Assembly (NCBI GenBank): GCA_947630535.1
Contig: CANRHZ010000010.1
Span: 1 to 46,863 of the forward strand
Direction of reading: 5' to 3'
Length of the DNA: 46,863 nt
Source of the DNA: Candidatus Gastranaerophilales bacterium
GTDB lineage: Bacteria; Cyanobacteriota; Vampirovibrionia; Gastranaerophilales; Gastranaerophilaceae
This document shows positions 3,337 through 44,358 of this stretch, piece by piece. The notes under the pieces were generated by a model, which was given only the letters and a program-made list of their open reading frames with translations, was not told where the DNA came from and made no database searches. Position 1 is the stretch's first letter. The number at the start of each line of letters is the position of its first letter. The position numbers were made by a program, and so were the translations under genes.

Positions 3337-4326
3337 TTGGAGCTTACCCCCCCCCCCAAGGGATTAGGCGGATTTACTTTAGCTGAAGTATTGATAACAC
3401 TAACAATTATTGGTATCGTTGCAGCGATAACGCTACCTTCATTATTAGTTAATGTCAATGACAAAGCATGGAATGCTCAAAGAAAAGCCTTATATGCCAG
3501 AATGAGCCAAGCAATAGGAGAGATGGATAGTATTTCAGGATATGGCTCATCAAACGGGCAAAGCGACGCTGAAATAAAAGAAGGGGCGGCAGAAGCTTTT
3601 ATAATAGATGGACTATCTAAAGTCTATAGGGTTCAAAACATCTGTAATTCAAATAATTTATCTGCATGCGGAATACCATCAAGCATAATAGCATTGGATG
3701 GAACTACTTTACCTTTTCCAAAAAGTCTGCATGAATTAAATCCGTATTTCACTGAATATCCTGACCCTGAAGATTATTCAGAAGATGATTATAAACTTAC
3801 AACCGATATTAAAGCAGCCGCCTTTGAAACCGTTAACGGAGAATCCGTTGCCCTATTCTATAATCCAAACTGCGGCTCAAATGTTACCGACACACAATCT
3901 TTCGTCCAAACAAAAACTTGTGTTAATATGATATACGACCTGAATGGCCTAAAAGGCCCAAATGAAGTCGGAAAAGATGTAGGATTTATTACCGTTTTAT
4001 ATAGAACAAATAGTGTTGTGGTTGCACCAAATCCATTCCCGAGTGATGCTTCAACATCAACTGCGCCATCTTATAGTGATGATGGTAAAGATGCCGCAAC
4101 TCTATGTACTCAACAATCTGATGATGCAAGACTACCGGACATTGACGAACTTTCTTCAATGTTTATTAACCAATCTTTAATAGGTATCTCTACTGTTAAT
4201 TACTGGTCAGGCTCAGTCGTTTCTTCGGGAAAAAGCGGCCTTGCATGGAATCTATATATGCTTGATGGGGTTCGTGGCAGCTGCATCCGCTCGGGCCCAA
4301 GTTACGTTCGCTGCATTAAAAGATAA
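3337..4326 (+). CDS. Pilin-like protein with C-terminal lectin-fold-like domain, copy 2 (natural ATG out of frame at poly-C tract)
   Basis: This is a tandem paralog of the gene at 2235. The natural ATG is 3324 (GGGAG upstream), but 11 Cs (3347-3357) put it out of frame; 10 or 13 Cs would restore it. As sequenced, an open frame runs from TTG 3337 (MELTPPPKGLGG) without its own ribosome site. The order is prepilin motif GFTLAEVLITL, hydrophobic helix, Cys-containing body (NICNSN, NPNCGSN, KTCVNM), then DARLPDIDELSSMF, YWSGS and final YVRCIKR. The body is about 80% identical to copy 1, while the last ~35 residues before the VRC end differ at more than half of the positions. It is probably assembled or exported by the type IV pilus/type II secretion machinery. 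Confidence 0.85.
   Translation: MELTPPPKGLGGFTLAEVLITLTIIGIVAAITLPSLLVNVNDKAWNAQRKALYARMSQAIGEMDSISGYGSSNGQSDAEIKEGAAEAFIIDGLSKVYRVQNICNSNNLSACGIPSSIIALDGTTLPFPKSLHELNPYFTEYPDPEDYSEDDYKLTTDIKAAAFETVNGESVALFYNPNCGSNVTDTQSFVQTKTCVNMIYDLNGLKGPNEVGKDVGFITVLYRTNSVVVAPNPFPSDASTSTAPSYSDDGKDAATLCTQQSDDARLPDIDELSSMFINQSLIGISTVNYWSGSVVSSGKSGLAWNLYMLDGVRGSCIRSGPSYVRCIKR
3347..3357 (+). repeat. Poly-C tract (11 Cs) in pilin-like gene 2
   Basis: Same position as the 12-C tract of copy 1 but one base shorter, so the two copies sit in different frames. Confidence 0.85.
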
Positions 4327-40520: not shown

Positions 40521-41636
40521 TTATTTATTGATATTAGAATATTTCGGATTTTTAAATTTTATTCTAAAGCCTGATAAAGATAGAATTTTATGGCTTTTAT
40601 CGTAAGAATTTTTAATGGAAAATAAATTTTGTAATAAGCTATATGTTTCCCTTTTTAAAATTGACTTATTAAATGTGACAAAATTGGGACACCTGTATAA
40701 TTTAAAAAATAGTTTATTTTTTGTTAGCACAGGGTTTTTGCCGATAAATTCTTGAATTTTCTCATAAGCTTCAAAATAATATTCAGGCCCAAGCATTCTA
40801 TAGCCATAGCGAATTCTTGAATATATTTCATCAAACATATATGAAATATGTTCACCCCCCCCCCCCGCAAAAATGGTTTTTTTATTTTCTTCAATAAAAT
40901 CGAGAAACTGCTGATTAGAGTATATAAAATCAAAAAGATAATCTTTTTTTGTATGTGCCCTCATATGCCCCGTTATAGAATTTTTGTTACCGATTCTATA
41001 ATTATATAAAACCTTTTTTAACCCATAAAAGGTCTTTGAATAGCAAAGATACTTATAATTAAAAATCACATCTTCATGGGTATACTTTTCAAGGTATGCA
41101 AGGTTATATTTATCAATTAACTCTTTTTTGTAAATCTTATTCCAAACAAAGGGGTTTAAATTGGATAAAGTTTTATTTGTTACATTATATAGACCTTCAA
41201 ATCTAAGTTTATGGAAATCTTTTATTGCGGGTGTGATTTTAAAATTGTCTATGCTTATAATCTTGCAATCACACACAACCATATCGGCATTTGTTTTTTC
41301 CATGGCATCTGTCATACATTCAACCATATCTTTTTCGTAATAATCATCCCCGTCGCAAAACATAATATAATCTCCGGATGCTTTTTTAATGGCATTGTAT
41401 CTTGAAATTGCACACCCGAGGTTTTCTTGTTTGTATGCTTTTATTCTTAAATCTTTTTTTGAATATTCTTCAAGTATTTTCCATGAATTGTCTTTTGAAC
41501 CGTCATCAATACAAATTGCTTCAAAATTTGTGTATGTCTGATTAAGAATGGCTTCAAGGCATTCATTTAGAGTATCTTCACAATTATATACAGGGATTAT
41601 TATTGAAACTTTTTTCATAACTTGAACATCATCCAC
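40521..41636 (-). CDS. GT2-family glycosyltransferase with an in-frame poly-G tract (currently ON)
   Basis: 371 aa; the true start may be the inner ATG 41618 (MKKVSIIIPVYNCEDTLNEC). GT-A landmarks: ICIDDGSKDNSW and the DxD-like MFCDGDDYYEKDM. There is no membrane helix, so it is a cytosolic transferase on a lipid-linked or growing glycan. Around residue 257-260, twelve Gs encode four glycines (TIFAGGGGEHISYM). One extra G gives an immediate TGA, one fewer gives a wrong frame that ends about 45 residues later. The gene follows the nucleotidyltransferase fusion by 8 nt and is cotranscribed with it. Confidence 0.88.
   Translation of the reverse strand: MDDVQVMKKVSIIIPVYNCEDTLNECLEAILNQTYTNFEAICIDDGSKDNSWKILEEYSKKDLRIKAYKQENLGCAISRYNAIKKASGDYIMFCDGDDYYEKDMVECMTDAMEKTNADMVVCDCKIISIDNFKITPAIKDFHKLRFEGLYNVTNKTLSNLNPFVWNKIYKKELIDKYNLAYLEKYTHEDVIFNYKYLCYSKTFYGLKKVLYNYRIGNKNSITGHMRAHTKKDYLFDFIYSNQQFLDFIEENKKTIFAGGGGEHISYMFDEIYSRIRYGYRMLGPEYYFEAYEKIQEFIGKNPVLTKNKLFFKLYRCPNFVTFNKSILKRETYSLLQNLFSIKNSYDKSHKILSLSGFRIKFKNPKYSNINK
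40855..40866 (-). repeat. Poly-G/C tract (12 nt) inside the GT2 gene
   Basis: Twelve Cs on the plus strand, encoding Gly codons on the minus strand. As sequenced the full-length frame is open. Confidence 0.85.
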
Positions 41637-43572: not shown

Positions 43573-43625
43573 TATTAGCATAGAAAACCATGTTTTTTAA
43601 GAAAAAATTGAAGTAAACAACAATA

Positions 43626-43636
43626 GGGGGGGGGGG
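43626..43636 (+). repeat. Poly-G tract (11 Gs) in the ribosome-binding position of the methyltransferase gene
   Basis: Eleven Gs end 2 nt before ATG 43639. No other Shine-Dalgarno exists, so the tract itself must serve as the pairing site for 16S rRNA. Confidence 0.85.
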
Positions 43637-43638
43637 TA

Positions 43639-44358
43639 ATGAAAAACAGGTGGATTGAAATATGGAACAAAAGAGAAATCGATAAAGATTTCTCAAATCT
43701 GAAAAATTCAAAAGAAACATATTTCGAATTAAAAAGAATTGACGGCTACGATTTATCAAAAATTACTCATCAGGCTTTTTTAAATCAGCACGAAATTATA
43801 AAAAACAACATTGCTAAAGGTTTTAATGGAAACTTTAAAAATGTTAAGAGCATTTATGAAATAGGGTGCGGGTGCGGAGCAAACCTTTATATGTTTGAAT
43901 TGGAAGGCATAAAAGTTGGCGGCGGGGACTATTCAAATACTCTTATTAATTTAGCAAAAAGGATTATTAAATCTGATGATATTGAATGCCTTGAAGCCAT
44001 AAATATTGATGAAAACCCAAAGTATGACGTAATATTATCAAACGGTGTCTTTGAATATTTTGAAAGTATAAAATACGCTGAAAAAGTGCTTGAAATTGCC
44101 TATAAAAAAGCAAATAAAGTAATTGCACTTGTAGATATATATGATGAAACCAAAAAAGACGACTTCTTTACATTCAGAAGGCAAAATGTTAAAGACTTCG
44201 ATAAACTCTATAAAGATTTACCGAAGTTATTTTATAAAAAGGAATTTTTTATTGATTTTGCAAAAGAACACAATATGAAGTTGGAATTTAAAGAAGCCAC
44301 CCTTGAAGGTTATTGGAATAATGCCTTTATATTTAGCTGCTATATGTACAAAAATTAG
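43639..44358 (+). CDS. SAM-dependent class I methyltransferase
   Basis: 239 aa. SAM motif I is IYEIGCGCGANLYMFE (about 73-88), followed by the acidic strand VGGGDYSNTLI and the post-motif YDVILSNGVFEYFE. The N-terminal part (residues 1-65) is charged and likely helical. It is divergent from the nucleotidyltransferase fusion, 113 nt away, and probably belongs to the same decoration pathway, either as an N- or O-methyltransferase of the head group or sugar. Translation likely depends on the 11-G tract just before its start. Confidence 0.85.
   Translation: MKNRWIEIWNKREIDKDFSNLKNSKETYFELKRIDGYDLSKITHQAFLNQHEIIKNNIAKGFNGNFKNVKSIYEIGCGCGANLYMFELEGIKVGGGDYSNTLINLAKRIIKSDDIECLEAINIDENPKYDVILSNGVFEYFESIKYAEKVLEIAYKKANKVIALVDIYDETKKDDFFTFRRQNVKDFDKLYKDLPKLFYKKEFFIDFAKEHNMKLEFKEATLEGYWNNAFIFSCYMYKN

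Follow-up and report, generated by a model that had tools for sequence, protein, structure and literature searches.

The eleven-G homopolymer (G11) in front of the methyltransferase gene is, from its sequence context, best explained as the Shine-Dalgarno sequence (SD) of an enzyme that would methylate a surface-glycan headgroup, in a genome where slippage-prone G-runs abound; we give this reading a probability of about 0.68. The G-run itself probably recruits the ribosome, with GGGGG pairing to CCUCC of the 16S rRNA tail, and replication slippage would change its length, as seems to happen with the tracts of other genes here. The most likely effect is translation that stays high and almost unchanged from about 9-10 Gs up, with a loss of expression once the tract falls below about 8. 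The net outcome would be a gene that is usually on and less often in a low state, not a fine rheostat.

Position of the tract and start of the gene

The window, i.e. the whole stretch of 46,863 nucleotides that was analysed, carries the tract on its forward strand at 43626-43636, or -13 to -3 relative to the methyltransferase ATG. The start codon, at 43639, directly follows a TA dinucleotide. Close upstream of this ATG no second SD is seen besides the G-run, and the sequence agrees with the first-pass annotation, which had eleven Gs ending 2 nt before an ATG without any other SD. The tract length, a single consensus value taken from a metagenome-assembled genome (MAG), lies in the slippage-prone range for homopolymers in or next to a gene (about 8 or more).

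Table 1 Features around the G11 tract in the window.
Feature	Position	Strand	Basis
Family 2 glycosyltransferase, G12 tract in frame at 40855-40866	40521..41636	-	ORF, domain
Divergent nucleotidyltransferase fused to a CobD/HisC-like PLP enzyme, 626 aa	41645..43525	-	ORF, domain matches
Candidate weak promoter, TTGTTA-16-TATAAA	43545..43572	+	Putative, by eye; absent from the consensus-scan list
Presumed leader, A-rich, without C-runs, predicted unstructured	43580..43625	+	Sequence, folding
G11 homopolymer, presumed SD	43626..43636	+	Sequence, pairing and spacing estimates, family class
TA dinucleotide separating the tract from the ATG	43637-43638	+	Sequence
Class I SAM-dependent methyltransferase, 239 aa	43639..44358	+	ORF, Pfam domain, homologue-supported start

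The encoded protein matches Methyltransf_12 with 36.9 bits (cut-off 30) and contains the SAM-binding motif EIGCGCGANL, of which GCG.GANL is conserved in the alignment of homologues. A single-sequence pattern search of the genome contigs finds no relatives; a three-sequence profile finds ten, the closest named one being 68% identical. Together with the GFTLAEVLITLTIIG prepilins, this closest named relative places the organism with Candidatus Gastranaerophilales. Three homologues, from two other genera, align with the methyltransferase from residue 1, and most of ten further relatives, in named genomes, share this start residue. At that start several relatives have ordinary SDs, for instance AAGGAG in L075/L158. 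With the start residue shared, the G11 therefore stands where relatives have their SD. The homologues also rule out a true start further downstream, which would have refuted the first-pass annotation by its own terms. One homologue, that of L164, appears to start later because its frame is shifted by a G8 tract.

Predicted pairing with the ribosome and estimated effect of tract length

The 16S rRNA tail GGATCACCTCCTTTCTA is found in two genomes of the same genus; this exact tail is absent from the MAG, whose own tail is not assembled. Against ACCUCCUUU the tract pairs with -10.7 kcal/mol, the median over all 38 window ORFs of at least 150 aa being -3.45 kcal/mol. It outscores the first start of each of the other 37; one internal alternative start of another window ORF pairs better, at -11.8. 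Complementarity to the 16S 3' tail is accompanied by a suitable spacing, good from about G8-G9 up. This strong pairing, in the SD position of the correct start, supports the earlier claim that the tract is the ribosome-binding site.

Expression at other tract lengths was estimated from SD pairing plus spacing, in the style of the RBS Calculator, with parameters after that tool and a simplified helix search. The relative rate is 0.06 at 6 Gs, 0.75 at 7, 1.4 at 8, 2.0 at G9 and 2.4 at G10, and stays flat (2.3-2.45) from there to G18, because a sufficiently long homopolymer always offers the best register. In this model a one-base change near G11 should matter little, unless a G-quadruplex, a small RNA or transcription senses the length.

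The first-pass annotation had proposed a graded translational rheostat, where each G gained or lost shifts the pairing register or the spacing and expression changes stepwise around G11. We regard this as unlikely. The tract does span the SD position, and leader G-runs grade expression elsewhere: in Helicobacter pylori the tlpB-hp0102 leader has a variable G-repeat (a series of 6-16 Gs), which is the target of the small RNA RepG and exerts graded post-transcriptional control (PMC8295292). That precedent, however, operates through the small RNA, and the register of a homopolymer is free. Nor does the estimate bear out grading near G11, as it is flat from about 9-10 Gs and drops only below 8.

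A threshold switch has a small chance of being correct. Eleven or more Gs would permit a two-layer intramolecular quadruplex (4x2+3) that hides the SD, and 10 or fewer would leave it free. When its quadruplex option is on, ViennaRNA folds the tract into two layers from 11 Gs and into three from 15; the energy parameters for two-layer quadruplexes are generous, and we treat the fold as hypothetical. G-tract structure has also been suspected in Bifidobacterium (PMC9187656). Such a fold would have to compete with the ribosome, and the other genuine leader tracts of the family (see below) have 11-12 Gs as well as 8-10.

G-runs in the genome and in homologous genes

The window contains 18 overlapping G8 matches, against 0.7 +/- 1.2 in shuffled sequences, and the 1.85-Mb genome has 58 runs of at least 8 Gs. 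Among 55 distinct tracts examined, 15 near contig ends were left out; of the 40 scorable ones, 37 fall at some tract length inside an ORF of 100 aa or more, which leaves three exceptions, the methyltransferase tract among them. Prepilin paralogues of the genome show 10 to 13 Gs between near-identical flanks.

Two prepilin-like genes (MTNLFGAYPPP...GFTLAEVLITLTIIG) are found in the window itself, with C12 and C11 runs near their 5' ends (2258-2269 and 3347-3357); at the assembled C-run length neither gene reads in frame from its ATG (2235 and 3324, respectively). Genome-wide, their paralogues are many, with near-identical flanks and other tract lengths, and many lie at contig ends. Elsewhere in the genome, L042 (G000:C16:7870-15600) has four G11 tracts within 5 kb, near or inside ORFs, and L061 (G000:C42) carries at 1493-1508 a G16, the longest run seen in the genome, with a LicD gene about 2 kb away.

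Four homologues of the methyltransferase, L164, L165 and L166 from Lachnospiraceae and L167 from Gastranaerophilales, have a G8 or G9 inside the gene, at three different places of the coding sequence (L164 2492, L165 2622, L167 2789), with L166 identical to L165 in its tract and truncated ORF. The genes of L164, L165 and L167 are out of frame at the assembled tract length and open at others (G7/G10, G8/G11 and G7/G10, respectively). Judging from these sequences, the methyltransferase has apparently come repeatedly under slippage control, through the frame in the relatives and, presumably, through the ribosome site here.

Leader G-runs across the family

We surveyed 383 genomes of the family, which as members of one family are not independent, for homopolymers in front of ATGAAA starts only. 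Runs of at least 8 Gs end 1-6 nt before ATGAAA in 39 places and 7-26 nt before it in 63. As a control we took the mirror runs of at least 8 Cs (38 places at 1-6 nt), preferred over a backward pattern because the latter also catches coding tracts. After removal of duplicates, a start was counted as genuine when an ORF of at least 70 aa begins at that ATG and the tract is not entered from upstream by an ORF longer than 15 codons.

At a spacing of 1-6 nt, 11 of 38 poly-G starts are genuine, against 1 of 37 for poly-C (Fisher p 0.003). The sole poly-C case is an artefact, a C52 run at a contig end, without which p becomes 0.0004. By spacing, the genuine G cases number 11 at 1-6 nt, 3 at 7-10 nt and 3 at 11-26 nt, one of the three distant ones with a GAGGAG of its own; 14 of the 17 thus lie no more than 10 nt from the ATG (binomial p 0.0003 versus an even spread over 26 nt). 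The placement of G-runs is therefore specific both in strand and in position, as an SD role predicts, and supports a recurring class in the family where the G-run would be the ribosome site.

The genuine set comprises two tandem copies of a 1142-aa secreted protein and further secreted proteins of 1506 aa and 2247 aa, as well as a UDP-glucose dehydrogenase, a glycoside phosphorylase and an aldo-keto reductase; several of its proteins have no Pfam match. The tandem 1142-aa genes, in L141 (1865-5290 and 5639-9064), have a common leader with G11-T-ATG in each and no Pfam match. In L052/L094, from two genera, an N-terminal extension of one gene (MKDFF/MKDSF...) contains the G-run, G11 or G9, and a second ATG lies 4 nt past it.

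One may tentatively go further and see in these loci a contingency class of the Gastranaerophilales, in which a mutable homopolymer is itself the SD and, by slippage, switches the translation of surface genes at a threshold (below 8 Gs, or by a quadruplex from 11). Such a class would be set apart from frameshift and promoter-spacer switching.

The run could instead be incidental, slippage-prone yet neutral, with the AT-rich unstructured leader alone driving translation. G-runs are indeed common in this genome, and several window genes have weak SDs by their pairing scores. We find this improbable in view of the bias for G over C and of how closely the runs gather near the ATG family-wide, to which the coding tracts in the same gene family among relatives can be added.

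Upstream region and other modes of switching

The promoter-like match in Table 1 would set the transcription start near 43580, with about 45 nt of leader before the tract. It is a mere guess, because the promoter-consensus scan omitted the match and chance alone readily yields others like it: the scan of the window gave 5, versus 9.8 expected. Between the tract and the ATG the sequence contains no -10-like hexamer, which places the G11 outside a plausible -35/-10 spacer. Hence the first-pass annotation holds in that the tract is not in the spacer, and its promoter about 50 nt upstream is only a guess. A promoter-spacer contingency locus of the porA/nadA type was likewise rejected, the weak promoter-like match sitting upstream of the tract. 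Inside the leader, a mini-ORF (ATG TTT TTT AAG AAA AAA TTG AAG TAA, 43590-43616) terminates before the tract.

Targeting of the tract by a C/U-rich small RNA, in the manner of RepG on the tlpB leader, is very unlikely: the position in the leader and the length resemble the tlpB repeat, but in tlpB the ribosome-binding site is marked separately from the repeat.

A classical frameshift contingency locus, with its start codon upstream of the tract, would fit the genome-wide preference for long ORFs given above, but is extremely improbable here, as none of the three frames enters the tract from an upstream ATG, GTG or TTG, no long ORF spans it at G10-G12 and homologues start at the ATG after it. 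It would need initiation at AUU; the extension that this codon would start, which runs through the tract and is in frame at a length of G9 or G12, lacks an SD and is unlikely.

Gene neighbourhood and probable function of the enzyme

The fusion of a nucleotidyltransferase with a CobD/HisC-like enzyme that lies divergently from the methyltransferase is likewise its neighbour in L158 and L161. In the family 2 glycosyltransferase, the G12 is in frame at 371 aa and the product is shortened at plus or minus one G; it is a coding contingency tract near the G11 site. Relatives of the methyltransferase adjoin genes for a LicD-like transferase, AEP aminotransferase, PEP mutase and phosphonopyruvate decarboxylase.

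The organism's own genome has two LicD genes. No PEP mutase was found in it; the headgroup here would therefore not be a phosphonate made that way, and we dropped the phosphonate route for it. The target of the methyltransferase is probably an amino headgroup, of the phosphoethanolamine or aminoethylphosphonate type, placed by a LicD-type transferase on a surface glycan.

Relation to known systems

Slippage switches are known mostly as frameshift or promoter-spacing devices, and tuning via the ribosome-binding site itself is rarely described. Our search of the open-access literature, a limited negative, returned no case of a homopolymer that is itself the SD; papers on Treponema polyG tracts and meningococcal fHbp gave none either, and in none of tlpB, uspA1 and espR is the run the SD.

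The closest likeness is with tlpB, a variable G-run in an mRNA leader that controls a surface-glycan gene. There, however, the repeat is the target of a small RNA and the ribosome-binding site is separate, whereas the G11 stops 2 nt short of the ATG, with no rival SD candidate. In Moraxella catarrhalis uspA1, G8-10 give low and G11-12 high mRNA in strain 195ME, an effect reported as transcriptional (PMC7302503); the G8-G12 tract upstream of the ORF and the length-dependent expression are similar, but uspA1 acts at the mRNA level. Mycobacterium tuberculosis espR also has a G-run in its leader, a G7 in the 5' UTR where a single-G insertion changes translation via leader folding (PMC11898584); in contrast to ours, that tract begins 144 nt from the start codon, at the 5' end of the RNA.

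Pilus genes of Bifidobacterium undergo slippage in intragenic G11-12 tracts (PMC9187656). These too are surface genes of a gut bacterium, and similar coding tracts occur in this genome and in the methyltransferase homologues; frames are switched there, whereas here no standard-start frame crosses the tract. Surface tailoring clusters with AEP/PntC-LicD are known, methylation not being mentioned in the text of the paper (PMC6697681). PEP mutase, AEP aminotransferase and LicD-like genes similarly neighbour relatives of the methyltransferase, but its own genome differs in that no PEP mutase was found, and the window has the nucleotidyltransferase-CobD/HisC-like fusion.

For the lineage studied here, our literature searches found no report of phase variation, the one paper returned being on flagellins. 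The family-wide set of genes with leader G-runs makes it testable whether a homopolymer can serve as SD, and the reading proposed here would also place contingency loci in relatives of cyanobacteria, a gut lineage that is little studied and largely uncultured.
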